A stretch of 21,250 nt of DNA from a virus. Shown here one piece after another: positions 636 through 21,250 of this stretch. Both the position numbers and the translations under genes were made by a program. The notes beneath the pieces are model-generated. The model was not told the origin of the DNA. It made no database searches and was given only the letters and a program-made list of their open reading frames with translations. The stretch covers positions 1-21,250 of IMG/VR virus record IMGVR_UViG_3300021961_000751; one strand, 5' to 3'. Positions within the stretch are counted from its first letter, which is position 1. Each line of letters begins with the position of its first letter.

Positions 636-1365
636 AGCAAAACAAACAGTTCTGGCGGGGCGTAAGCTGTTTATCGGCATCCCCGCGTATGACGGCAAGA
701 TCAACATCAAACTTGCGTACAATCTTGCGGCGTTAATGCCCAAGGCGTTGCAGTTTGGTGTTTCCGTCAAACTTGGCGACGTGTCCGGATGCTCAATCAT
801 CACCATGGCTAGAAACCAATTGGTGCACGAGTTTCTCAAGACCGATGCCACAGAACTGTTGTTCATTGATTCTGATGTGATTGCCACAGCAGATGACGTC
901 TTACGTTTGATGGCCCAGAGTGGTGACAAAGACATCACTGCTGGCGCTTATCCACGTAGATCAAAAGACAAAAACTTTTTCGCCGATTTGTATTTCGACG
1001 AGAACAAAGACCTAGAGTTTGATGGCTCTCTCATGCGCCTTGAGCGTGTGGGCACAGGCTTTATGTTGATCCAACGCCACGTTATTGAAGCGATGGTTGC
1101 CGCACACCCCGAGTGGTTCTATGACTTTAAGGGCGAACAAGTGTGTGGTGTGTTTGATTTCCAAAATCGCGATGGTCGCTACCTCGGTGAAGACTATCTG
1201 TTCTGTGACCGCGCACGCGAGCACGGATTTAAAATTCACATTGACGTGGACATTAGCTTGCCCCACGTTGGTACAGAAGCATTTGAAAACAACTTTAGAG
1301 AAGAAGTTGTACTCCCGCTTCTGGACATGATTCGTCAATCCAAACTGAAAGTCGTAAATGGCTAA
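628..1365 (+). CDS. GT-A fold glycosyltransferase-like protein
   Basis: 245 residues from ATG 628, inside the end of the previous gene (ATGGCTGA overlap, no clear Shine-Dalgarno, so translation is probably coupled). The N-terminus FIGIPAYDG is followed by ARNQLVHEFL and then LLFIDSDV, with a DxD-type D81-S-D83. That arrangement is typical of GT2/GT-A nucleotide-sugar transferases, where the DxD holds the metal and UDP-sugar. G187-E-D-Y fits the acidic helix seen near the catalytic base, and H213 (LPHVG) could be the late metal-binding His. No signal peptide or membrane segment is seen, so it should be cytosolic. Its place among structural genes suggests it modifies a virion protein or a host surface glycan; DNA modification is less likely. 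Substrate unknown. Confidence 0.75.
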   Translation: MAEAKQTVLAGRKLFIGIPAYDGKINIKLAYNLAALMPKALQFGVSVKLGDVSGCSIITMARNQLVHEFLKTDATELLFIDSDVIATADDVLRLMAQSGDKDITAGAYPRRSKDKNFFADLYFDENKDLEFDGSLMRLERVGTGFMLIQRHVIEAMVAAHPEWFYDFKGEQVCGVFDFQNRDGRYLGEDYLFCDRAREHGFKIHIDVDISLPHVGTEAFENNFREEVVLPLLDMIRQSKLKVVNG

Positions 1366-1603
1366 GACCGCAGCATGGACAAGGAAAGAAGGCAAGAATC
1401 CCAAGGGCGGCTTGAACGCCAAGGGACGAGCCTCCGCGAAAAAGCAAGGCATGAATTTGAAACCGCCCCAGCCCGAAGGCGGCTCCCGGCGCGACTCTTT
1501 TTGTGCGAGGATGGAAGGGATGAAAAAGAAATTGACATCCGCCAAAACCGCCAAAGACCCAGACTCACGCATAAATAAATCATTACGTGCATGGAATTGC
1601 TGA
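1358..1603 (+). CDS. DUF6321-like small basic phage protein
   Basis: 81 residues, starting at ATG 1358 inside the stop of the glycosyltransferase gene (ATGGCTAA overlap). The sequence has the pattern AWTRKEGKNPKGGLNAKGR, then LKPPQPEGG and SFCARMEGMKKK. I recall this pattern as the DUF6321 family, common in aquatic phages and some bacteria; the family name is from memory. It is very rich in Lys/Arg/Gly and has two Cys residues (SFCARM and the C-terminal NC). No enzyme motif is visible and function is unknown; nucleic-acid or virion association would fit its charge. Two other frames are also open over this stretch, but only this frame shows a recognisable conserved pattern and coupled start. 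Confidence 0.75.
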   Translation: MAKTAAWTRKEGKNPKGGLNAKGRASAKKQGMNLKPPQPEGGSRRDSFCARMEGMKKKLTSAKTAKDPDSRINKSLRAWNC

Positions 1604-1604
1604 T

Positions 1605-1853
1605 ATGGACTTGATGGTTTGGAACGTCATTCTCTCGTTTGCCTCAACACTGCTGGTGTTCTGGGTAAAGGTGTCGCACGACGAAGTAAAGCGCTTGAGT
1701 ATTCTCTTGAGTAAGACTCGGGAAGAAAACGCTGAAAAGTTTGTGACCAAGTCTGATGTACACAACGACATCAACCGAGTGTTAGCACGTCTTGACCGAC
1801 TAGAGAGCAAGATTGATGACTTTATGAAGGAGCATCGCAGTGCCCTCAGTTAG
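1605..1853 (+). CDS. Small membrane-anchored coiled-coil protein
   Basis: 82 residues from ATG 1605, one base after the previous TGA (TGATATG), with no good Shine-Dalgarno, so reinitiation is likely. GTG 1587 is upstream in frame but would overlap the preceding gene; ATG 1614 is also possible. Residues 4-22 are a hydrophobic segment (VWNVILSFASTLLVFWV). Residues 23-78 are highly charged with heptad-like Leu/Ile spacing (VKRLSILLSKTREEN, LARLDRLESKIDDFM), suggesting an N-in membrane anchor and a helical coiled coil. Such one-TM plus coiled-coil proteins are common in phage structural or lysis regions, but I cannot assign a specific role. Its 3' end overlaps the next gene by 14 bases. Confidence 0.65.
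   Translation: MDLMVWNVILSFASTLLVFWVKVSHDEVKRLSILLSKTREENAEKFVTKSDVHNDINRVLARLDRLESKIDDFMKEHRSALS
1826..1832 (+). promoter_or_regulatory. Shine-Dalgarno deciding a GTG start
   Basis: GAAGGAG lies inside the 3' end of the preceding gene, 7 nt before GTG 1840. No ATG in that frame is nearer than residue 12, so this site supports GTG initiation. Confidence 0.75.
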
Positions 1854-2184
1854 TAAAAAGCAACATAATTTCATGGCGGCGGTGGCTAACAACCCAGCGT
1901 TTGCTAAGAAAGCAGGCGTTCCACAGTCCGTGGGCAAAGAATTTAACCAAGCGGACAAGGGCCGCAAATTTTCAAAAGGTGGCGACATGAAACACAAAGA
2001 CGTGAAGATGGACAAAAAGATGATGCAGAAGGCCGTGAATAAACACGAAGGCCGTTTGCACAAGGGTCAGCCAATGACTAAGTTGGCTACGGGTGGTTTC
2101 ACTCGCGCCGCTGATGGTATTGCTACAAAAGGCAAAACCAAGGCTAAACAAATTAAGATGGCCGGTGGCGGCTACTCTTGCTAA
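1840..2184 (+). CDS. Small basic phage protein with KFSKGG and ADGIAxKGKT motifs
   Basis: 114 residues from GTG 1840, chosen because a strong Shine-Dalgarno lies 7 nt upstream and the N-terminus MPSVSKKQHNFMAAVANNP is one I recall as conserved among phage proteins. The middle is Lys/Met/His-rich (residues 49-77). RKFSKGG lies at 42-48, ATGG at 83-86, ADGIATKGKT at 91-100, and the protein ends MAGGGYSC. The KFSKGG and DGIA motifs recur in neighbouring genes. No enzymatic motif or membrane segment is seen, and net charge is strongly positive. Function is unknown; a nucleic-acid-associated or internal virion role would fit but is inference. A stop/Shine-Dalgarno module (TAAGGAG) links it to the next gene. 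Confidence 0.75.
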   Translation: MPSVSKKQHNFMAAVANNPAFAKKAGVPQSVGKEFNQADKGRKFSKGGDMKHKDVKMDKKMMQKAVNKHEGRLHKGQPMTKLATGGFTRAADGIATKGKTKAKQIKMAGGGYSC

Positions 2185-2196
2185 GGAGCAATCATG
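2182..2196 (+). promoter_or_regulatory. Stop/Shine-Dalgarno/start junction module
   Basis: TAAGGAGCAATCATG: the TAA stop of the upstream gene is also the 5' part of the Shine-Dalgarno (UAAGGAG), and the next ATG follows 9 nt later in the same frame. Two junctions at 7411 and 12416 have the closely related TAAGGAAAAATCATG. Confidence 0.75.
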
Positions 2197-3165
2197 GCTA
2201 AAAAACCTATGAAGTTCAAACGCTACGAAGGTGGCGGTGAAGTTGAAGAATCCGCAGCCAAACAACGCGGGTTGGATATATCCAATAAAGAAAAGCCTGT
2301 TGGCTTCTTTGAGCGTATTCGTATGGGCAACATCGATGACCCTTCTTCTGAAGCGTACAAGCGCTTTGGTGCCGGTCGTGGCCGTGCCGCCCCTGCCGCC
2401 GAGGAAGATCGTCCCCGCCCCGTGCCCCGTCCTCCCGCAAAACCAAACCCCATTTTTGCCGCTAGTGAAGAGCAAGGTAAGCGTCAGCCTTCTGGCGATG
2501 CAAGCGTAGCGGAAGACTATTCAGGCGCACGCACTAAGCCGATTATCACTACTGCGGAAAAGAAACCTGCCGCATCTAAACCTGCGTCAAAACCCGCTGA
2601 GGCAAAGCCAAAAATGGAAGCGGTCAGTAAGTCATCGTATGACGGCCCATTGCGCGGTATGCGTAGCGATATGCGTTCTTCAGGCGTAGACAAGCGTGGT
2701 GAGACTGACATGTCTAACTACAAGCCACGTCGTTCTTCTGGTTCTTCTAGCACGGATGGGCGTGGTGAGACTGATATGTCTAACTACAAGCCACGTCGTT
2801 CTTCTGGTTCTTCTAGCGCGGATACACGTGGTGAGACAGACATGTCTAATTACAAACCCCGCCGTTCTTCTGGCTCCTCAAGCACGGATGGGCGCGGTGA
2901 GACTGATATGTCTAACTACAAACCCCGCCGTTCTTCTGACGCTCCTGACATGTCTAACTACACTCCCCGCCGTACTCCCGGCCCTTTGAGTGACGTTCGT
3001 CGCCCCGGCACTAACGTCAATTACGAAAACGACGATACGTCTGATATGTCGTTTAGAAAAGGCGGTAAAGTTAAAAAGTACGCTTCCGGCGGTATGGTAT
3101 CTGCCGCATCTAAACGCGCCGATGGTATTGCCTCCAAAGGCAAGACACGTTGCAAGATTTGCTAA
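2194..3165 (+). CDS. Disordered repeat protein with 22-residue RGETDMSNYKPRRSS repeats and C-terminal ADGIAxKGKT
   Basis: 323 residues from ATG 2194 with GGAG 5 nt upstream. The N-terminus (MKFKRYEGGGEVEE) carries a GG motif. Residues about 50-165 are Pro/Ala/Lys-rich and low complexity. From about residue 168 there are four tandem 22-residue units with core RGETDMSNYKPRRSSGSSS, then a shortened fifth (DMSNYTPRR). The C-terminus has FRKGGKVKKYASGGMVSAA, then ADGIASKGKT at 309-318, ending RCKIC. The composition (Ser, Arg, Lys, Pro, Gly, few hydrophobics) indicates intrinsic disorder. No enzyme motif or membrane segment is present. Function unknown. Repeat number is likely to vary between relatives because the DNA units are nearly identical. 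Confidence 0.75.
   Translation: MAKKPMKFKRYEGGGEVEESAAKQRGLDISNKEKPVGFFERIRMGNIDDPSSEAYKRFGAGRGRAAPAAEEDRPRPVPRPPAKPNPIFAASEEQGKRQPSGDASVAEDYSGARTKPIITTAEKKPAASKPASKPAEAKPKMEAVSKSSYDGPLRGMRSDMRSSGVDKRGETDMSNYKPRRSSGSSSTDGRGETDMSNYKPRRSSGSSSADTRGETDMSNYKPRRSSGSSSTDGRGETDMSNYKPRRSSDAPDMSNYTPRRTPGPLSDVRRPGTNVNYENDDTSDMSFRKGGKVKKYASGGMVSAASKRADGIASKGKTRCKIC
2695..2973 (+). repeat. Tandem 66-bp coding repeats (4 full units plus a shortened fifth)
   Basis: Units begin at the Arg codon at 2695, 2761, 2827 and 2893, exactly 66 bp apart, each encoding RGETDMSNYKPRR plus a Ser/Gly-rich linker. A fifth DMSNYTPRR follows at 2947, only 42 bp after the fourth DMSNY. Units 1 and 2 are almost identical at DNA level. 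Units 3 and 4 differ from them mainly at synonymous positions (CCACGT versus CCCCGC for Pro-Arg), which suggests stepwise duplication. Confidence 0.9.
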
Positions 3166-3173
3166 GGAATAAC

Positions 3174-3653
3174 ATGGCTGACATTGAATATAAAACCCCA
3201 CAAGACGTAGCCGACGAAAAGGCGCGTGCGAAAGCCGACAAAGCCTATAACAAAGCTATGCCTGAGCCAGATACCACGACCGGTAAACTTAAAGGTCAGT
3301 CAATCATGGACAGCATTAGGAAGTACTCTCCTAACCAAGCCGCAGAAATTGATGAGTCCGAAGCAAAAACCAAAAAGTATGGTGAGACTGCTGCTAAAGA
3401 CTTCAAAGAAGGAAAGTATGGCTCCGCTGCATTAAACACCGCCAAAGGTTTGGGTTCTGCCGCCGACACTCTGTTGGTTAAAGGCCCAAAAGCAGCGGCG
3501 TTTGCTGCACGCAATCGCATTGTAGATGGCGAGAAAAAAGCGTCTGGCGGTATGATTGGAAAGAAGTTTTCCAAAGGCGGTTCAATTTCGTCTGCCGCTA
3601 AACGCGGTGATGGTATTGCCAAAAAGGGCCACACCCGTGGCAGGATGGTCTAA
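3174..3653 (+). CDS. Basic Ala/Lys-rich phage protein with KFSKGG and GDGIAxKGHT tail
   Basis: 159 residues from ATG 3174, with AAGGA (3164-3168) 5 nt upstream; the stop of the previous gene is part of this Shine-Dalgarno. The first 70 residues are charged and probably helical (DVADEKARAKADKAYNKA). Residues 75-125 are Ala/Gly-rich with moderate hydrophobicity (AALNTAKGLGSAADTLLVKG). The C-terminus repeats the block's tag: KASGGMIGKKFSKGGSISSAAK, then GDGIAKKGHT at 145-154, ending RGRMV. Compared with the previous gene's tail, the SxAxKRxDGIAxKGxTR core is the same. No known fold is recognised. A small internal or accessory virion protein is possible. Confidence 0.7.
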   Translation: MADIEYKTPQDVADEKARAKADKAYNKAMPEPDTTTGKLKGQSIMDSIRKYSPNQAAEIDESEAKTKKYGETAAKDFKEGKYGSAALNTAKGLGSAADTLLVKGPKAAAFAARNRIVDGEKKASGGMIGKKFSKGGSISSAAKRGDGIAKKGHTRGRMV

Positions 3654-3654
3654 C

Positions 3655-3975
3655 ATGTTGGCCAGTCGCGGCATGGGTGCCATGAACCCCTCTAAAATAC
3701 CAAAAGGTATTGTGAAGAAGCGTCGTGATAACACGGACTTCTTGGAGAACGGCAAGCGCAAACCGCGCCGCGACAACACTGACTTCACCGAGTACGCCGA
3801 AGGCGGTAAAGTGAATGAGGCAGGTAACTACACCAAGCCCGGTCTTCGCAAGAGGATTGTGTCGCAGGTAAAAGCCGCAGCAACTCATGGCACCGGTGCC
3901 GGTCAGTGGTCAGCACGTAAAGCACAACTTGTTGCAAAGAAGTACAAAGAAGCCGGTGGAGGGTATAGAGATTGA
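3655..3975 (+). CDS. Small basic protein: GMGAMNPSK head, duplicated RRDNTDF, GQWSARKAQ domain (DUF5872-like)
   Basis: 106 residues from ATG 3655, one base after the previous stop (TAACATG). Three parts are visible. The N-terminus SRGMGAMNPSKIPKG is a pattern I recall at the start of many phage small proteins. A duplicated RRDNTDF lies at residues 23-29 and 38-44, followed by EYAEGGKV (46-53). A C-terminal domain (NYTKPGLRKRIVSQVKAA ... GQWSARKAQLVAKKY ... AGGGYRD) looks like the first half of a two-part family that I tentatively connect with DUF5872; the name is uncertain. The following gene looks like the second half of that family. Function unknown; it is strongly basic, and no catalytic motif is visible. 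Confidence 0.7.
   Translation: MLASRGMGAMNPSKIPKGIVKKRRDNTDFLENGKRKPRRDNTDFTEYAEGGKVNEAGNYTKPGLRKRIVSQVKAAATHGTGAGQWSARKAQLVAKKYKEAGGGYRD
3958..3963 (+). promoter_or_regulatory. Shine-Dalgarno deciding a TTG start
   Basis: GGAGGG within the 3' end of the preceding gene, 8 nt before TTG 3972. The TTG overlaps the preceding stop as TTGA. There is no ATG at a sensible position, so this site supports a TTG start. Confidence 0.75.
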
Positions 3976-4205
3976 AAGCACCGCAAAAATCGCTAAAAGA
4001 TTGGGGTGACCAGAAGTGGCGCACCAAGTCTGGAAAGCCGTCGAGTAAGACGGGGGAGCGGTATTTGCCTGAAGCTGCAATCAAGTCTCTATCACCAGCG
4101 GAGTATGCCGCTACAACCAAAGCCAAACGTGCGGGTAAAGCGGCTGGGAAGCAGTTTGTATCGCAGCCCAAAACAATTGCAAAGAAAACGGCAGGATTTA
4201 GATGA
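3972..4205 (+). CDS. Small basic KSGKPSSKTGERYLP protein (second half of a DUF5872-like pair)
   Basis: 77 residues from TTG 3972 (TTGA overlap with the previous stop, GGAGGG 8 nt upstream). The conserved-looking string is SLKDWGDQKWRTKSGKPSS, then TGERYLPEAAIKSLSPAEYA, then KQFVSQPKTIAKKTAGFR. I recall this as widely distributed in phages and some bacteria and large viruses, there often joined to a GQWSARKAQ...GGGY domain like the one ending the gene upstream. Here the two halves are separate genes in different frames. Very basic (about 20 Lys/Arg), no membrane segment or catalytic motif, function unknown. It overlaps the next gene by ATGA. Confidence 0.75.
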   Translation: MKAPQKSLKDWGDQKWRTKSGKPSSKTGERYLPEAAIKSLSPAEYAATTKAKRAGKAAGKQFVSQPKTIAKKTAGFR

Positions 4206-5131
4206 CCACTAGCGGCTCAACCTTCTTTAACCTTGACTTCACGGAAATCGCTGAAGAGGCGTGGGAACGTGCGGGTCGAGAGATGCGTTCTGGCTACGAT
4301 TTGCGCACTGCGCGTCGTTCTATGAACCTGATGACCATTGAGTGGCAAAACCGTGGCATTAACATGTGGACGATCGAGGAGGGAACTATCCCCCTCGTAC
4401 CCGGCCAAAACACGTACGCATTGCCCAACGACACCATTGACTTGTTAGAGCACGTCATCCGTACGGGCGGCAACACAGCGTCTACACAAGCCGATCTCAC
4501 CATCACACGTATCAGTGTATCTACGTACGCCACTATCCCTAACAAGTTAGCGCCGGGCCGTCCCATTCAGATTTGGGTACAGCGCATGAGTGGCGAGACA
4601 AGCCCAACCGGTACGTTCTTGGACGGCACCATTACTTCTACTGCCACAACAATCACAGTGGCGGACGCGTCGAATCTGGCGGGTACAGGATTTATCAAGT
4701 TAGACGATGAAATCATCAACTACGGATACATCACAGGGAATACCCTATACAACTGTTTCCGTGGGCAACAGAACACTACGGCAGCGGCGCACACTACGGG
4801 CGTAACTGTCTACAACCCCAATGTACCAGCCGTGACGTTGTGGCTCACACCTGATAACTCGCAACAGTACACGCTCGTGTATTACCGCCTACGCCGCATT
4901 CAGGATGCGGGGGCTGGTGTAGAGACCGGCGACATGAATTTCCGCTTCCTGCCCGTCGTGGTGGCTGGCTTGGCCTACTATATTGCCATGAAGGTGCCTG
5001 AATTGATGCAGCGTCTCCCGATGCTCAAAGAGGCGTATGACACGCAGTTTGACCTTGCCGCAGGTGAAGACCGCGAAAAGGCCGCAATTCGCTTTGTACC
5101 CCGTCGTCAGTTCCTTGGAAGTGGTGTGTAA
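4202..5131 (+). CDS. Head-to-tail adaptor-like protein with inserted beta domain
   Basis: 309 residues from ATG 4202 (ATGA overlap). The helical N-terminus (EIAEEAWERAGREMRSGYDL, then RTARRSMNLMTIEWQNRGINMW) followed by GTIPLVPGQNTYALPNDTIDLLEHVIR matches the helical-bundle connectors that sit below the portal in podoviruses (T7 gp11/P22 gp4-type). The family name is by pattern, not by search. Conserved-looking ISVSTYATIPNK and GRPIQIWVQR follow. Residues about 138-206 look inserted: a beta-rich piece ending in YNCFRGQQNTTAAAHTTG, a string common in many unrelated phage proteins. The core then resumes (VTLWLTPDN...YTLVYYRLRRIQDAG) and ends in helices. It probably joins the portal to the tail. 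It is the first of two adaptor-type proteins here. Confidence 0.65.
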   Translation: MTTSGSTFFNLDFTEIAEEAWERAGREMRSGYDLRTARRSMNLMTIEWQNRGINMWTIEEGTIPLVPGQNTYALPNDTIDLLEHVIRTGGNTASTQADLTITRISVSTYATIPNKLAPGRPIQIWVQRMSGETSPTGTFLDGTITSTATTITVADASNLAGTGFIKLDDEIINYGYITGNTLYNCFRGQQNTTAAAHTTGVTVYNPNVPAVTLWLTPDNSQQYTLVYYRLRRIQDAGAGVETGDMNFRFLPVVVAGLAYYIAMKVPELMQRLPMLKEAYDTQFDLAAGEDREKAAIRFVPRRQFLGSGV

Positions 5132-5514
5132 TGGGAAATAGATTTGCGTCCGGCAAGATAGCCATTGCGATATGCGATCGCTGTGGCTTCCAATTTCGCC
5201 TGCGCAATCTTAAAGAAGAAATTATCAAGACCAAGCGGTTCAACATTTTGGTCTGCCAAGAGTGCTGGGATCCCGACCAGCCGCAGTTACAGTTGGGTAT
5301 GTACCCAGTGGATGACCCACAGGCCCTACGCAACCCGCGTAGGGATACAACCTATGTAACGTCAGGCATAAACGCCAACGGCAATTTGTCGGGGGGCTCA
5401 CGGGATATTCAGTGGGGGTGGAACCCTGTTGGGGGCGCAAGATTTTTTGACGTCGATTTAACACCAAACTACTTGGTGGCAACGACATTTGTTGGTACAG
5501 TAACGGTCAGTTAA
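5131..5514 (+). CDS. Four-cysteine zinc-ribbon phage protein
   Basis: 127 residues from ATG 5131 (TAATG overlap with the adaptor gene). Two CxxC knuckles, C15-x2-C18 (CDRCGFQF) and C42-x2-C45 (CQECWDPDQPQ), are spaced like a zinc ribbon, and DDPQALRNPR follows at 61-70. I recall this arrangement next to adaptor genes in related phages. The C-terminal 50 residues are Gly/Trp/Val-rich and probably beta. The zinc site is well supported by the Cys pattern. Its job is unknown: a structural zinc site in a connector or tail component seems more likely than DNA binding, given the position between two adaptor genes. Confidence 0.75.
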   Translation: MGNRFASGKIAIAICDRCGFQFRLRNLKEEIIKTKRFNILVCQECWDPDQPQLQLGMYPVDDPQALRNPRRDTTYVTSGINANGNLSGGSRDIQWGWNPVGGARFFDVDLTPNYLVATTFVGTVTVS

Positions 5515-5524
5515 GGAGATCACT

Positions 5525-5716
5525 ATGGCATACACACGATCAGCAGACGGCATCGCCAAAAAAGGCAAAACCGAAGGCACAAACTTGGGCAATAGCGGCC
5601 CCGCAGTTGGCATCATGACTGGCGGAAAAGGTCGCTCTGGCGGTGGTAAAACTAACGCAGACATGAAGACTATGGGTCGTAACTTGGCCAAAGTCGCTGC
5701 ACAAAAGCGAGGTTAA
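5525..5716 (+). CDS. 63-residue Gly/Lys-rich protein with N-terminal ADGIAKKGKT
   Basis: Starts at ATG 5525, with AAGGAG (5513-5518) 6 nt upstream that includes the previous stop codon. The shared motif ADGIAKKGKT is here at residues 7-16, near the N-terminus instead of the C-terminus as in three genes upstream. The middle is Gly-rich (MTGGKGRSGGGK) and the end TNADMKTMGRNLAKVAAQKRG looks helical and basic. No enzyme motif or membrane segment. Function unknown. It belongs to the block of tag-bearing small proteins. Confidence 0.7.
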   Translation: MAYTRSADGIAKKGKTEGTNLGNSGPAVGIMTGGKGRSGGGKTNADMKTMGRNLAKVAAQKRG

Positions 5717-5717
5717 T

Positions 5718-5963
5718 ATGGCCACAGTAAACAACAAGCCCGCATCTGCTTACGCCAAACCACACACAATGAGTGGTAAAGGTGTGACTGTTGCCGAGAA
5801 TCCCGGTAGTGGCCCTAACCACAGCCGCGCTGATACAGTTGACATGAGCGTCGGTAACGTCAGCAAAAATGCTGGTGACAAGCCAACTAAAACGTCAGGC
5901 ATCATGGTGCGTGGCGGTAAAGCCCAGACCAAAGGCAGAATGGCACGCGGCCCCATGGCCTAA
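5718..5963 (+). CDS. Small conserved phage protein (SGKGVTVAENPGSGP type)
   Basis: 81 residues from ATG 5718, one base after the previous TAA; GAGG (5709-5712) supplies a close Shine-Dalgarno. The string AYAKPHTMSGKGVTV, then NPGSGP, SRADTVDMSVGNVSKNAG, KTSGIMVRG and MARGPMA is one I recall from related phage clusters as a hypothetical protein. It is Gly/Lys/Asn-rich, has no Cys and no hydrophobic segment, and is probably mostly extended or disordered. It sits directly before the second adaptor gene. Function unknown. Confidence 0.7.
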   Translation: MATVNNKPASAYAKPHTMSGKGVTVAENPGSGPNHSRADTVDMSVGNVSKNAGDKPTKTSGIMVRGGKAQTKGRMARGPMA

Positions 5964-7905: not shown

Positions 7906-8748
7906 ATGACAACCGCATGGGGCGCAGGGGCGTGGGGTGACAATAGTTGGGGAGGTCAGCAATCTGAACTCTCTGGCGTTGTTGCGTCTGGTGGTGTCGG
8001 TTCTGTTACTGCAGAGGCCATATACGAGGTAGCTATTACCGGTGTAGCGGCTACTGGGGCAGTCGGATCAGTTACTGTTGCGGAAAGACAGTTTGTTCTT
8101 ACGGGCGTATCAGCCATTGGTGTACCGGGGGAGATTTCAATACCCGGACGTGATTCTGGGCTTGAAGGGGTTGGGGCAATAGGCGCGGTTGGTTCCGTTG
8201 CCGTTGACTCATCAGAAAGTGAAGACAGTGTTCTTGCGACAGGCTCGGTTGGTACTGTAGGAGTCTCAAAAACTGTCGCAATCTCTGGCGTTGAAGCCAC
8301 AGGCGCTGTTGCTACAGTTGGTTTTACGTATGGCGCAAATATTGGGGGCAATGAGGCTTCTGGTGTTGTTGGTACTTTGGGGTCTGACAGAACTGTCGCG
8401 CTTACAGGAGTTGAAGCCACAGGCGCTGTTGGCACGCTAGAATTTAATTTTCAAGCAACTAGCGTTTTGGCTACGGGCTCTGTTGGCGACGTCGCAATGG
8501 GCGAACGTACTGTTGCCTTAACGGGTATAAGTGCTTCAGGACTTATTGGGGATGAAGTTCCAGTCAAAGCAATAGCCATTTCAGGCGTATCCGCCGCTGG
8601 CGCCGCAGGCGCGGTGTCTATTGGCGCAAGGTTAGTGGCTGTTACTGGATCACAAGCCATGGGCGAATTAGGAACAATTGGGTTGTCTTACTGGAGTTTA
8701 ATTGATGACACAGAAGACGCAAACTGGCAAAATATCATCACAGTGTAG
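7906..8748 (+). CDS. Twelve-repeat phage virion protein (LTGVxATGAVGxV repeats)
   Basis: 280 residues from ATG 7906, with GGAGG 7 nt upstream inside a hairpin. The N-terminus is Gly/Trp-rich (TAWGAGAWGDNSWGG). Residues about 20-265 contain about twelve degenerate repeats of 18-22 residues with core (V/I)(A/L)(I/L)(T/S)GVxA(T/S)GAVG(S/T)V. The protein ends YWSLIDDTEDANWQNIITV, a tail I recall from similar phage repeat proteins. No Cys; strongly Gly/Ala/Val; likely a regular beta structure such as a fibrous or solenoid shaft. It lies directly before the tail-fibre genes, so a shaft or fibre-base role is plausible. No family could be named with confidence. Confidence 0.7.
   Translation: MTTAWGAGAWGDNSWGGQQSELSGVVASGGVGSVTAEAIYEVAITGVAATGAVGSVTVAERQFVLTGVSAIGVPGEISIPGRDSGLEGVGAIGAVGSVAVDSSESEDSVLATGSVGTVGVSKTVAISGVEATGAVATVGFTYGANIGGNEASGVVGTLGSDRTVALTGVEATGAVGTLEFNFQATSVLATGSVGDVAMGERTVALTGISASGLIGDEVPVKAIAISGVSAAGAAGAVSIGARLVAVTGSQAMGELGTIGLSYWSLIDDTEDANWQNIITV
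7962..8695 (+). repeat. About twelve degenerate 54-66 bp coding repeats
   Basis: Repeats encode LSGVVASGGVGSV, ITGVAATGAVGSV, LTGVSAIGVPGEI, LEGVGAIGAVGSV, DSVLATGSVGTV, ISGVEATGAVATV, GGNEASGVVGTL, LTGVEATGAVGTL, TSVLATGSVGDV, LTGISASGLIGD, ISGVSAAGAAGAV and VTGSQAMGELGTI. Most copies have diverged, but 22 bases at 8290-8311 and 8410-8431 are identical, exactly 120 bp apart. Confidence 0.85.
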
Positions 8749-14769: not shown

Positions 14770-16968
14770 ATGTCGCTTAAGAAAATCATATTCCGCCCGG
14801 GGGTCAATCGCGAAAATACGCGCTATGCGTCGGAAACGATGGGTAACCCCAACTCGGCTACAAACGTAGCGGGCGGCTGGTATGAATCTGAGAAGGTGCG
14901 ATTTCGTTCCGGCAGCCCCGAAAAAATCGGTGGTTGGCAACGTATCTCTGGGGCAACGTTTCAAGGCGTATGCCGTTCTCTGTGGAACTGGGTAACGCTG
15001 GGTTTCTTAAACCTTATTGGTGTTGGTACGAACTTAAAGTTTTACATCGAACAAGGCGGGGCGTACTACGACATCACCCCACTGCGCTCGTACACGGAAG
15101 CCCCTGTCACCCTCAACAATCCGTTTGATACCACGTCCGGATTGGCGACCATCAATGTAAACGATACTGCTCACGGGCTGACCACTGGGGATGTTGCTAC
15201 ATTTTCGGGGGCCGTTGCAGTGGGCGGTATTCCAGCAGAAGTTATTAACACCAATCACAAAGTAACAGTTGTCGGGGTTGACGACTACACAATTACCGTA
15301 TCTACCACAGCTACTTCTACTGTGACAGGTGGGGGCGGTGCTTCCGTTTCCGCAACATACACAAAGTTCAATGTTGCGCTGACAAACCCTTTCACTGCAA
15401 CACTAGGCTCCCCTGTTATCACAGTTACTGATACTGCACACGGGGGTGTGACGGGCGACTTTGTAACCTTCAGTGGTGCTGTAGGATTAGGCGGCAACAT
15501 CACGGCTACGGTCTTGAATGCTGAATATCAAATTACAGTATTGGGCGCTAATACGTACACAATCAGTGTTGGCGTAAATGCCAACGCTACAGACGTTTCA
15601 GGTTCTCCCGGCGGCGGCGCGTCCGTGGTTGCCGTATATCAAATTAACGTAGGCCCCGCAATCGTAGGCCCCCTTGTAGGTTGGGGTGGTGGCGCGTGGG
15701 GTGCTGGGGTATGGGGTACTGGAGGAACATCTCTCAGTGCCATTCGCCTGTGGAGTCAGTCTAACTTTGGGGAAGACCTTGTGTTTGCCCCTCGCGGTGG
15801 CGCTATCTATTATTGGGATGCTACAACGGGAGTTACATCTCGTGGTGTTGCGTTGTCTTCCCTTAACGGCGCATCTGCTGTACCTATAGTTCAAAACTTT
15901 ATTTTTGTCTCTGACATCAACCGGTTTATCTTTGCGTTTGGGTGTAACGACCAAGGCTCTGCCGTGCAGAACCCTATGCTAATTCGCTGGTCTGCCCAAG
16001 AATCCGCAGTTGATTGGGCGGCTTCGGCTACCAACCAAGCAGGTAGCATTAGTTTCTCCCATGGCTCCGAACTGATCACATGCCTACAAACCCGCCAAGA
16101 AATTGTGGTGTGGTCTGACTCGGCTATCTACTCGATGCAGTACGTGGGTGCTCCGGCTATTTGGCAATCGCAACTGCTTGGCGATAACATTTCTATCCAG
16201 TCTCAAAACGCAGCCGCAACCGCTTCAGGTCTTGTGTTCTGGATGGGCGTAGATAAGTTTTATAAGTACGATGGTCGCGTACAAACCCTGCGCTGTGATC
16301 TGCGTCAATACATCTTTAGTGACATTAACACCACTCAAGCGGCACAAGTCTTCGCGGGTACAAGCGAAGGTTTCAATGAAATCTGGTGGTTCTACTGCTC
16401 TGCTAACAGTCAAGCAGTTAACAAATACGTTGTGTATAACTACAGCGAAGACATCTGGTATTACGGCACAATGGGCCGTACTGCGTGGCTAGATTCAGGC
16501 TTGCGGGACTACCCACTAGCGGCTACGTACTCTTACAACTTGGTCAATCATGAGCAAGGAAACGATGATGATGAAACGGGTACGCCGGTGGCTATTGCGG
16601 CCTCTATTGGTTCTTCTGAATTTGATATTGATGACGGCCATAATTTTGGTTTTGTCTGGCGCGTAATTCCTGACTTAACATTCCGCAACTCAACAGGTGA
16701 TCTGACGCCGCAGTGCACTATGACACTGTTACCCATGCGTAACTCAGGCTCAGGGTTTAATAATCCACAGTCCGCCGCAGGGAGCAGCAGTGCATCAATC
16801 CAGCGTATTGCCACTGCGCCAATTGAAGAGTTTACGGGGCAAGTGTATATCCGCGTTCGTGGGCGTCAGTTGATCTTTAAGATTGAATCTAATCGCCTTG
16901 GCACCGCATGGCAGTTGGGCGCACCACGTATCGACATCCGCGCTGACGGCAGACGAGGTAACACATGA
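14770..16968 (+). CDS. Large tail nozzle/tubular-like protein with two FCCH-like modules
   Basis: 732 residues from ATG 14770, three bases after the endolysin stop. The N-terminus (FRPGVNRENTRYASE ... NVAGGWYESEKVRFRSG, PEKIGGWQRISG) and the following FQGVCRSLWNWVTLGFLNLIGVGTNLKFYI describe a large beta-rich tail protein. It is similar in logic to podovirus tail tubular B/nozzle or P22 gp10 proteins, whose N-termini also refer to GG..KRPG-like strings; this is an inference from pattern. Residues 115-200 and 204-292 are two related modules (LNNPF/LTNPF, TAHGLTTGD/TAHGGVTGD, YTITV/YTISV). Then GWGGGAWGAGVWG (304-316), echoing the start of the 7906 product. Residues 320-732 form a repeating W/Y-rich beta region, possibly a propeller. 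ATGA overlap with the next gene. Confidence 0.6.
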   Translation: MSLKKIIFRPGVNRENTRYASETMGNPNSATNVAGGWYESEKVRFRSGSPEKIGGWQRISGATFQGVCRSLWNWVTLGFLNLIGVGTNLKFYIEQGGAYYDITPLRSYTEAPVTLNNPFDTTSGLATINVNDTAHGLTTGDVATFSGAVAVGGIPAEVINTNHKVTVVGVDDYTITVSTTATSTVTGGGGASVSATYTKFNVALTNPFTATLGSPVITVTDTAHGGVTGDFVTFSGAVGLGGNITATVLNAEYQITVLGANTYTISVGVNANATDVSGSPGGGASVVAVYQINVGPAIVGPLVGWGGGAWGAGVWGTGGTSLSAIRLWSQSNFGEDLVFAPRGGAIYYWDATTGVTSRGVALSSLNGASAVPIVQNFIFVSDINRFIFAFGCNDQGSAVQNPMLIRWSAQESAVDWAASATNQAGSISFSHGSELITCLQTRQEIVVWSDSAIYSMQYVGAPAIWQSQLLGDNISIQSQNAAATASGLVFWMGVDKFYKYDGRVQTLRCDLRQYIFSDINTTQAAQVFAGTSEGFNEIWWFYCSANSQAVNKYVVYNYSEDIWYYGTMGRTAWLDSGLRDYPLAATYSYNLVNHEQGNDDDETGTPVAIAASIGSSEFDIDDGHNFGFVWRVIPDLTFRNSTGDLTPQCTMTLLPMRNSGSGFNNPQSAAGSSSASIQRIATAPIEEFTGQVYIRVRGRQLIFKIESNRLGTAWQLGAPRIDIRADGRRGNT

Positions 16969-17639: not shown

Positions 17640-20600
17640 ATGGCAGTAAGTAACGCAGACATTCTTGGGTGGTTAAACGCTAACCCCGGTGCAGATGACA
17701 CGCTAATTGCGCAAACAATGCAAGAAGCGGGCGTTTCTCCTGCGCAAATGGCGGAAGCTACTGGGCTTAATTATGGTGACGTGTCTAGTAGGTATGAGGC
17801 TGCGTTAGGTATTGCATCGCTCCCCGCAGCCGCTGCACCCGTTACAAACACTACACAAACGACCGCCGCGCAATCGGTAGACGATTTTATTGCGTCCGCC
17901 CCCACGTCAACAATGACGGTTGAAGACTTGTACACAACCATTCTTGGTCGTCCATCTGATGCAGGTGGTAAAGAGTTTTGGCAAAACGCGTTTGGGGATA
18001 CTGTAGACGAGTCAGAAAAGGCCAGCTTTTTGCAAGCTGCCCAAGCAGAACTTGATAATCGGTCTGTAGAAGAGCAAGCATTGCTAGCCCCTAAAATTGT
18101 GGATACGTCTGCTACCGGTGTAACTGATGCCGACATCCTTGGTTGGTTTGAAGCTAACCCCGGCGCAGACGATGCCACTATTGCTAGGGTAATGCAAGAA
18201 GCTGCGGTAACACCAGAACAATTAGCACGGGCTACTAATACAAACTTAGCCGACGTTCAATCTAGGTATGATGCGGCCCTTGCGAGTACAACCCAAACGC
18301 CAACAGTTGATCTGTCTAAAGCAGTCGACTTAAACAATGGCACGTTTCTTACCAATACCGGTGCAATTGTTGATTCTGAAGGTAGCGTAGTTAAAGACAC
18401 CGGCTCCGCTGCTACGGCTACGTTAACCCAACAAATTCTTGGGCAAAACTTAACAGACAAATGGCAAGGTGAAGGGTTTGGCACTGCGCAAGCTAATGCT
18501 GCGGATATGGCTGGTATTTTGGCCAGCATTGGTATTACAGACATTAAGCAGTTTGGTGAGATTACAAAAACTATTCCGGGGTACTCATACGAGACTGAAC
18601 AAGGTACAGTATACGTCCCCGAGCAGGTTGTTAAGACATTTGGTAACAAAGAAACAGGTCAAGAAGTTCCTAATACTTATAGCGAACGTCAAACCGGAAA
18701 TGCTTGGGGCGGGACGTTTGCTGGCTCTGGTAACACAGGTTACCGCGTTCAGTTCGCCGCTGATGGCACGCCTATTTTCTACACCACAAAAGCGTCTTCC
18801 AACACCCTTGCGAACCTTATGCAAGACCTTGGCCCTATTGGTCAGATTGGTCTTGCCGTTGCTACAGGTGGCTTGTCTATACCCCAACAGATTGCGGCTA
18901 ATTTGGCCTTAAACGTTTTAAGCGGTAAAGACCTTGGGGACGCAATTAAAGGCGCTGCAATCAGTTTTGCTGGTTCTCAAATTCCCGGCATGGACTTCAT
19001 GCAGGATGGCGCTTCGTTTATTAAAGACCTTGGTCTGTCCCCTGAAATCACAAAGACGTTAACCAACTCTTTCCAAAACGCTGCGGTTTCTGCTGGCACT
19101 GCGTTACTTAGCGGCCAAGATGTTGGTGAAGCCATGTTAAGAGGCGCGGCTACTGGTGGGATTAACGGCGCGGTCAACTCACTTTTGGGCAACATAGAAG
19201 GGTTTGGAGACCTAACCGATGCCCAACAAAGAATGGTTACAAACGCCGTGACTGGTGTAGTCTCAGGTAAGCCATTGGATCAGATTGTTATTAACACTGC
19301 GATTGCCGCAGCCAATTCCGCTATTGCGGAAGCCAAAGGTACAAAGGGTGAAGGTACCGACACTACGGTTACAACAGACACTACAACAACGACAGACACA
19401 GTAACAGGTGCAACAGGTAACGATACTGTTGCTTCAAACCTTGCAACCAAAGATATTGTTTCGTCAGTTGGTGATGGCGCAACTACAACGGACACATTGA
19501 ACCTTGGCGGTGCGGACGCGCTTGCAGGGACTCTTACAGACGCTAGTACGCTTATCGACACCGAGTTTGGTGATTTACAAGGCGCCCAAGATAGAAATAC
19601 CGCAAACAATCAAGCGCTCACAAGAATTGCCAACACACCCAAATTTGATGACGCATTTGCACAAGCGCGCGACTTGCTTGGCCCCGGTAAGACGTTTACA
19701 TGGCGCGGTAAAGAATACAGCACCGCTACAGCCACAGAACGCCCAGACCTAAGCACCAAATCTATTGATGCACTGAACGCAGCAAACTTAGCAACAACCA
19801 CCGATGCGTCTAAAACAGTAGCCGCACAGACTGACACAGCCGCACGTGAAGTTGCCGCTACCGAGACGCTTACCAACGTTGCAAACTCTACCAAAGCAGC
19901 CGAACCAATAACTTACAGTGGCCCCAAAATTCTTGGCGTGCCAATTGGCACAGTAGACGATTCAATCCGCACTGTTAAACGCATGGGTGACGTTTTGATG
20001 GATACATCACGCGGTCTTGGTCAAGGCTTTGGAAACTTTGCAACTTTCTTTGGCGACCTCGGCAACATCATGACTACAACGGCTGACGATAAGGCCGGTA
20101 CAACTTCGTCTCTCATCTCTAAAGACAACTTGTTAAGTACTGTTGGACGCGACGTGTCCAATTACTACAAAGGGTTGACTACGGAAGAAACTAAACAACA
20201 AACAAAAAACCTTATTAGCGATGTTAAGAACGCGCCGGATTACCTAAAACCATTTGTTGCAATTACGTCAGGCATTCAGAACATTGGCGGCCTGATTAAC
20301 ATGACTGCCGTAGAACTGGGCGAAGAAGGCCCTGCGTTTGCACTTGGGTTTGGTGCAGGTAGCGCGTTGTTAAAAAGCACGGCGGGAGCCGCCAAGAGTG
20401 CTGCGGCAGTGGCTAACGTGGCTGATATTGCGGAGGGGTCTACGAGTGGATTCCACAACGCCGGTAAGTTACTGGAAGGACGTACTGATTTAAACGACGC
20501 GCAGAAGTTTAATATTCAGATGCAGAGTGCCGCAACAAATGCAGCGGCTGTTGCGTTATTTTCCCCAATTGGTAACGCCGCTATTGCTCAGTCCGTCATC

Positions 20601-21250
20601 AAAGGCATTATGGCTCCGTCTGTGGCAAAGCAGATTGGTTCCGTAGCATCTGTAAACTACATGACCGAATATGGCGAGACGTTTACTCAAGTGCTTAACA
20701 CGCGGTATGCCGTCAACGGCACCGTAACTGCAAAAGATATTAGCGACGCACAGGTCGACTCGGCTGTTTCTGCTTTGATTGGTTTTACAAGTTCGGGCAC
20801 AATGTCCGGCGGCGCAAAAGTAATTGGCAGTGCGGATAACTCGTTTGTAGGTGCAACAGGCACGGACGCCGATGCTAAAGGCGTTTTAATTGTTCAGGAT
20901 TCAGACGGCAAGATTGGTTTAGTTCAAAACAATGGCGCAGAAGTTGGTAGCGAGATTGAGGTTAACGCGGACAATCAGATTACTGATCGTGGGGAGTTAG
21001 TTAATCAGTTTGCGTTTACAGACGAGCAAGACGGAACCATAGACAAAGACTTGGATACCGAAGGGGAAGTCAAGACAGATGCAGAAACAGATGCAGAAGC
21101 CGACGCCAAGGCAGATGCGGGTGTGGAAGTTGAGACCAAGGCAGAACCTGAAATAGACACTAAGGCAGAACCCGAGCCTGAGCCAGAACCCGAGCCAGAA
21201 CCCGAGCCTGAGCCAGAACCCGAGCCAGAACCAGAACCTGAGCCAGAACC
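17640..21250 (+). CDS. Giant internal/ejection-type virion protein (partial, runs off window)
   Basis: ATG 17640; open to the end, at least 1203 residues. AAGG 7 nt upstream includes the previous stop. Order of parts: helical repeat A (residues 5-57, ADILGWLNANPGADDTLIA...); a DUF4214-like segment at about 92-140 (VEDLYTTILGRPSDAGGKEFW); repeat B (163-215, ADILGWFEANPGADDATIA...); a mixed region; and a hydrophobic Gly-rich stretch near 396-430. A Thr-rich linker lies near 570-590. Further hydrophobic stretches lie near 898-930 (FALGFGAGSALLKS) and 965-1010. From about residue 1177 there is a Glu-Pro tract. Size, hydrophobic patches and position after tail genes suggest an internal virion/DNA-ejection protein rather than an enzyme; no transglycosylase motif is visible in this part. 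Confidence 0.65.
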   Translation, partial: MAVSNADILGWLNANPGADDTLIAQTMQEAGVSPAQMAEATGLNYGDVSSRYEAALGIASLPAAAAPVTNTTQTTAAQSVDDFIASAPTSTMTVEDLYTTILGRPSDAGGKEFWQNAFGDTVDESEKASFLQAAQAELDNRSVEEQALLAPKIVDTSATGVTDADILGWFEANPGADDATIARVMQEAAVTPEQLARATNTNLADVQSRYDAALASTTQTPTVDLSKAVDLNNGTFLTNTGAIVDSEGSVVKDTGSAATATLTQQILGQNLTDKWQGEGFGTAQANAADMAGILASIGITDIKQFGEITKTIPGYSYETEQGTVYVPEQVVKTFGNKETGQEVPNTYSERQTGNAWGGTFAGSGNTGYRVQFAADGTPIFYTTKASSNTLANLMQDLGPIGQIGLAVATGGLSIPQQIAANLALNVLSGKDLGDAIKGAAISFAGSQIPGMDFMQDGASFIKDLGLSPEITKTLTNSFQNAAVSAGTALLSGQDVGEAMLRGAATGGINGAVNSLLGNIEGFGDLTDAQQRMVTNAVTGVVSGKPLDQIVINTAIAAANSAIAEAKGTKGEGTDTTVTTDTTTTTDTVTGATGNDTVASNLATKDIVSSVGDGATTTDTLNLGGADALAGTLTDASTLIDTEFGDLQGAQDRNTANNQALTRIANTPKFDDAFAQARDLLGPGKTFTWRGKEYSTATATERPDLSTKSIDALNAANLATTTDASKTVAAQTDTAAREVAATETLTNVANSTKAAEPITYSGPKILGVPIGTVDDSIRTVKRMGDVLMDTSRGLGQGFGNFATFFGDLGNIMTTTADDKAGTTSSLISKDNLLSTVGRDVSNYYKGLTTEETKQQTKNLISDVKNAPDYLKPFVAITSGIQNIGGLINMTAVELGEEGPAFALGFGAGSALLKSTAGAAKSAAAVANVADIAEGSTSGFHNAGKLLEGRTDLNDAQKFNIQMQSAATNAAAVALFSPIGNAAIAQSVIKGIMAPSVAKQIGSVASVNYMTEYGETFTQVLNTRYAVNGTVTAKDISDAQVDSAVSALIGFTSSGTMSGGAKVIGSADNSFVGATGTDADAKGVLIVQDSDGKIGLVQNNGAEVGSEIEVNADNQITDRGELVNQFAFTDEQDGTIDKDLDTEGEVKTDAETDAEADAKADAGVEVETKAEPEIDTKAEPEPEPEPEPEPEPEPEPEPEPEPEPE
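21168..21250 (+). repeat. Hexanucleotide tract encoding (Glu-Pro)n, cut by window end
   Basis: From GAA 21168 to the last base the sequence alternates GAA/GAG with CCC/CCA/CCT, encoding about 14 Glu-Pro units inside the giant protein. Synonymous codons vary (GAGCCT, GAGCCA, GAACCC), so it is a coding repeat rather than a pure microsatellite. EP tracts form stiff, extended, negatively charged spacers. Assembly across such a tract is error-prone, so the true repeat number is uncertain. Confidence 0.9.

Follow-up and report, generated by a model that had tools for sequence, protein, structure and literature searches.

Dissimilar proteins encoded by neighbouring genes in one group of freshwater bacterial viruses share a peptide tag of about 20 residues. 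The tag is real, strongly supported and apparently undescribed, a partial literature search having found no earlier description, and its likely role is to dock the proteins to some phage partner that they share.

Copies of the tag in the window

The window, i.e., the whole stretch of 21,250 bases from an IMG/VR virus record analysed here, is the structural region of a podovirus-like phage, whose products include an SU10-type head-tail adaptor, virion structural proteins, a tail fibre, an endolysin and a stabilisation protein. A six-frame scan with the pattern [AG]DGIA.KG[KH]T found exactly four copies, all on the plus strand and starting at residues 91, 309, 145 and 7 of the products of the genes at 1840, 2194, 3174 and 5525, respectively, which are the genes and residues named in the initial annotation (Table 1). 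Given an expectation of 3.4e-7 from the residue composition of the window's six frames, chance is ruled out as the source of the four copies, and the reversed pattern, used as a control, has no match in the window. The motif also occurs outside this genome, in related IMG/VR contigs.

Table 1. Tag genes, tag cores and neighbouring genes in the window
Feature	Position	Strand	Description
DUF6321-type small basic protein	1358..1603	+	untagged in the window; tagged in L207, L070 and L220
Tag gene 1	1840..2184	+	114 aa, GTG start; predicted three-helix N-terminal domain, basic linker, tag
Tag core, internal form	2110..2139	+	AADGIATKGKT, then KAKQIKMAGGGYSC-stop
Tag gene 2	2194..3165	+	323 aa; low-complexity body with near-perfect GRGETDMSNYKPRRSSGSSS repeats
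Tag core, C-terminal form (gene 2)	3118..3147	+	SKRADGIASKGKTRCKIC-stop
Tag gene 3	3174..3653	+	159 aa
Tag core, C-terminal form (gene 3)	3606..3635	+	AKRGDGIAKKGHTRGRMV-stop
Small basic neighbour, phrog_17747	3655..3975	+	untagged
Small basic neighbour, phrog_14910	3972..4205	+	untagged; homologues in HMO-2011 and pelagiphages
SU10-type head-tail adaptor	4202..5131	+	PF24175 above cut-off; bounds the main tag cluster
Tag gene 4	5525..5716	+	63 aa; N-terminal tag and predicted C-terminal helix
Tag core, N-terminal form	5543..5572	+	MAYTRSADGIAKKGKTEGTNLG
Neighbour with possibly related ending	5718..5963	+	RGGKAQTKGRMARGPMA; family consensus RGTGAATKGxMARGPMA-stop

Tag sequence and spacing

The 10-residue motif first reported is indeed shared, as part of a longer piece in which the core is preceded by a GG linker and SASKR and followed by TRGxxx. 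The pattern scan of IMG/VR gave at least 120 stretches with the motif, many contigs holding 2 to 5 copies, and 148 unique C-terminal peptides yield the consensus SAS[KSR]R[AG]DG[IC]Ax[RK]G[KH]T[RK]G[KR]hx-stop, preceded by the linker and starting with [AS] in a broader form ([AS]S[KSR]R...). The D, G, G and T of the tag are invariant in these peptides and third codon positions vary, indicating that selection acts on the protein. The original proposal of a short tag common to dissimilar neighbours in a structural operon is thus borne out, with protein-level selection seen in addition. The stretch often lies directly before the stop codon in a tight operon, as would fit an RNA or regulatory element ahead of the next gene, but synonymous sites vary freely, on which ground this extremely improbable explanation was rejected, and where the tag is N-terminal or internal its amino acids are kept despite the different surroundings.

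Among the looser-pattern matches listed, the tag lies exactly 5 residues before the stop in 157 of 289, which is the mode; a second group lies about 12 to 17 residues before the stop, and a third form is N-terminal, being confined to the family of the 5525 gene. A free C-terminus is therefore not required.

The initial annotation had itself raised the objection that the motif could be a fragment of one known domain. This was rejected, since Pfam, NCBIfam and PDB hold no match to the tag region; the PHROG and Pfam matches fall in the bodies of the proteins, i.e., the parts outside the tag. A tblastn search of 50,697 phage records with the tag proteins of the window and the tag consensus, which as short low-complexity queries are insensitive, gave no matches. 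Among 11 pattern matches in genome contigs, L205 and L207 hold tag genes, and L208, L209, L212 and L215 are chance matches, judging from their context.

Tag genes and their neighbours

In the first tag gene product, the tag lies 14 residues from the C-terminus. Residues 1 to 43 match phrog_16759 (E=2e-21) and, over 43 aa, are 77% identical to proteins of the phiKZ group. AlphaFold predicts a confident three-helix domain for residues 1 to 40 (pLDDT 78-90), the rest scoring about 43-58. The same 43 residues (1840-1968, MPSxSKKQHNFMAAVANNP...) make up a stand-alone small protein in phiKZ-type phages (KTN4_204), and they also begin the virion structural protein GAP32_317 and its relatives.

The carriers had been described as small proteins, which does not hold for the 2194 product with its 323 residues. 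No confident family match was found for it in Pfam and PHROG profile searches. The third product has no Pfam or PHROG match and no tblastn match among isolate phages. The fourth belongs to a conserved family with at least 23 members in the alignment, and its AlphaFold model is of low confidence. In the models of the 1840 and 5525 products the tag is left unstructured, which is neutral on docking.

The DUF6321-type product ends SLRAWNC, and the relatives in L207, L070 and L220 add the tag straight after a similar end; the occurrence of this one family with and without the tag shows gain or loss of the tag. The RGGKAQTKGRMARGPMA ending of the gene at 5718-5963 is arguably a diverged version of the tag; as the score from the tag profile is at most 7.6 bits, homology is not established. 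Related loci have about one gene each with the RGTGAATKGxMARGPMA ending, which resembles the RGxGAAxRG ending of a pelagiphage (see below). Further along the window, the 7906-8748 product has repeated GVxATGAVGTV units, with similar repeats in the relatives' genes at the same place, and the window ends within a large open frame (17640-21248) that includes a long run of EPEPEPEP.

Position in related genomes

We collected 38 loci by their capsid gene, each extending 6.5 kb or more downstream, a choice that does not presuppose the tag. Tag genes are found in 34 of them, 1 to 4 per locus, and absent from four (at E<1e-3), which answers the second objection of the initial annotation, that the motif might be missing from genomes with the same genes. 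All 112 tag matches lie on the capsid strand, 1.5 to 7.3 kb downstream of the capsid gene, and the 20 loci with 8 kb of upstream sequence have none in it. Whole records numbered 41, including 12 picked for the motif itself; tags occur in 25 of the 41, in one cluster each. The gene order in several relatives is terminase, portal, GroES-like, putative scaffold, two small genes and capsid, followed by decoration, glycosyltransferase, DUF6321, the tag cluster, phrog_17747, phrog_14910 and adaptor.

Lying between the capsid and decoration genes and the SU10-type adaptor, the tag genes might instead encode minor structural or chaperone proteins that the tag docks to the head-tail connector or tail while the particle is being assembled, none of them being ejected. 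We consider this improbable, as it is unlike connector components to turn over so extremely and to be predicted so disordered as the bodies are (see below), and tag distance is not tracked by adaptor distance. Correlations between tag and structural protein distances are weak throughout (the best being phrog_14910, rho 0.22) and name no partner. In PDB, no match was found for the capsid or adaptor, and the stabilisation protein matched one capsid/scaffold entry.

Bodies of the tagged proteins

Clustering 279 tagged proteins by sequence after masking the tag gave 115 clusters, of which four hold chance matches only; about 110 body clusters are left, and no relation between these is detectable. 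Searches with 123 tagged proteins gave DUF6321 in one, along with three other single Pfam matches that are unconvincing, phrog_16759 in 18 and no match in NCBIfam; a further 56 gave DUF6496 in two and nothing else in Pfam. Essentially no cargo domain is recognisable among the 179 proteins searched against Pfam and the 123 searched against NCBIfam and PHROGs.

The bodies have a median pI of 9.85, 82% of them being above 9, and 87.5% of the bodies are predicted to be disordered, in contrast to a median pI of 5.1, 4% above 9 and 18% predicted to be disordered for controls from ten structural gene families of the same loci (gene starts were called by the first ATG). Body turnover was measured by masked tblastn, which under-detects low-complexity sequence; by this measure, when the capsid proteins of two genomes are 90-95% identical, a body of one can be recognised in the other in 3% of comparisons, as opposed to 82-100% for the neighbours (100% for the adaptor and 82% for the phrog_16759 family). 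Above 95% capsid identity, the body is recognisable in 28% (18 comparisons). The same search finds the small basic neighbours in 72-100% of pairs up to a capsid divergence of 20%. The bodies look like cargo rather than structure.

The body of the tagged protein at 4606-5217 of L207 recurs inside an 825 aa protein of L221 (3354-5831), the segments of which are parted by KxGGxAHMAxGG. The segment shared with the L207 body has a very weak match (E=0.99) to CC0527, which has an ADP-ribosylation-type fold.

Similarity of tags within one genome

In 52 genomes with at least two C-terminal tags, the tags of one genome differ at 3.22 of the 14 core positions compared to 4.28 after shuffling (0 of 1000 shuffles as low), whereas their codons at conserved residues are about as alike as after shuffling (identity 0.41 versus 0.404). 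Amino acid likeness without codon likeness points to a shared, genome-specific partner. The excess likeness is found at +4, +5, +12 and +13, being strongest at +4 and the hydrophobic +12/+13. A less probable source of such likeness is ancient copying with later saturation of the synonymous sites.

A spreading coding cassette, in which 3' ends are copied among neighbouring genes with no common function, would explain the few within-genome pairs with near-identical DNA (3% at 90% identity or more). Most pairs, however, have no excess codon identity, yet their amino acids are constrained and co-adapted, and with the near-identical pairs removed the difference persists (3.58 versus 4.28, 0 of 2000), making this explanation highly unlikely. 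In L231 (9079-11415), three of four tag genes have final 20 residues that are 93-100% identical in DNA, likely reflecting recent copying of gene ends.

The roles initially suggested were a docking tag, a packaging or cargo signal and a nucleic-acid contact. A docking or packaging signal is the most likely of these, and nucleic-acid contact stays a live rival because the bodies are basic. In that case the tag would be a basic, Gly-rich element of histone-like proteins binding packaged DNA, with no protein partner, in keeping with the Lys/Arg/Gly-rich bodies and tag and with the likewise small and basic phrog_17747, phrog_14910 and DUF6321 neighbours. We nevertheless regard it as unlikely, given that the invariant Asp and Thr, the fixed C-terminal spacing and the hydrophobic last residues are atypical of a charge-driven contact, and that co-adaptation within genomes peaks at +4 and the hydrophobic +12/+13 and not at basic positions alone.

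Possible function of the tag

In T4, a stretch of about 10 residues at the N-terminus directs small internal proteins to the head interior and suffices for the encapsidation of almost any protein (PMC7697877). These internal proteins are injected and disable host restriction enzymes, and their genes were found by spotting the signal (PMC12373910). The present proteins resemble T4 IPI-III in having a short peptide common to small proteins, injected in T4, with genes that vary among relatives; as in T4, a short terminal peptide is found on several unrelated proteins of one phage. The T4 signal is N-terminal, about 10 residues long and cut by the head protease, whereas the present tag has another sequence, is mostly C-terminal, has about 20 residues and gives no sign of being cleaved. 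We noticed no gene for a separate protease next to the capsid gene; the capsid protein is weakly similar to families that contain a protease. Identity with the T4 capsid targeting sequence was rejected, as position and sequence differ and homology is unsupported by the tests made. A second comparison is offered by the ejection (inner body) proteins of the phiKZ/SPN3US type, in which many proteins are packed with the DNA. The phiKZ group has the N-terminal domain of the 1840 product in common with the window phage, but it has no tag, and the shared part is a domain without an assigned function.

We infer a function from these analogies and from the evolutionary behaviour of the tag, and likewise infer a shared partner, packaging into the virion, ejection and a role of the bodies as cargo. 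By analogy, the tag could quite plausibly, with arguments evenly balanced, package small basic and probably ejected proteins into the head or connector; that it works like the T4 capsid targeting signal is an equally balanced proposal. The tag would be recognised by one shared partner, encoded by the phage and situated in the head or connector during assembly (candidates being the scaffold, portal, adaptor or inner capsid surface), so that unrelated proteins bearing it would enter the virion and would probably be delivered to the host with the DNA. This would leave the bodies free to be replaced, which is what one would expect if they are cargo that associates with DNA or acts against the host.

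If the tag loads virions, any frame of an aquatic metagenome ending in it would be a candidate packaged or injected protein, even where the body has no recognisable homologue, and "hypothetical" proteins would become a testable class. Anti-host cargo could be mined from genomes with its help, as was the case with the T4 signal, and it would serve as a portable peptide for placing proteins inside podovirus-like heads. A broader proposal, somewhat unlikely in our view, is a C-terminal virion-loading code, in which one phage receptor packages an open-ended set of fast-evolving effectors and the pelagiphage RGxGAAxRG ending is a second dialect; the tag would then allow the proteins that abundant aquatic phages eject to be mined from genomes.

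Cultured relatives and the pelagiphage ending

Three cultured-phage records carry the tag, namely, Planktothrix phage Pag-Yong1, Synechococcus phage MinM2 and Pra-JY27, with a capsid protein 74% identical; the cultured carrier surfaced via the capsid gene only and not via the tag queries. The tagged protein (UMO75986.1 in Pag-Yong1, WEV89192.1 in MinM2) has 308 aa and a pI of 11.3, ends RDGCAKRGRTKGRFI and is encoded between the capsid and adaptor genes. It is the only tag product of these phages, annotated as "hypothetical protein", whereas the window has four tag genes. With Pag-Yong1 as a cultured carrier, an experimental test is feasible. The phages DSL-LC04, HTVC023P and CRP-902 keep the gene neighbourhood and have no tag, which is therefore dispensable in related phages.

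In Pelagibacter phage HTVC023P, two unlike proteins end in RGVGAAIRG and RGGGAAVRG, each followed by exactly seven residues. They are gp32 (4873-5610 of L313), which adjoins the large gene after the terminase, and gp51 (15698-16081). Both endings fit R[AG]xG[ICA]Ax[RK]G plus seven residues and stop, and they align without gaps to RADGIAQRG plus seven, although this is a visual alignment of nine residues that differ from the tag at most positions, with homology not established. A relation of this ending to the tag is a lead suggested by the residue pattern. The pattern has three matches in 1212 isolate frames, compared to 0.18 expected.
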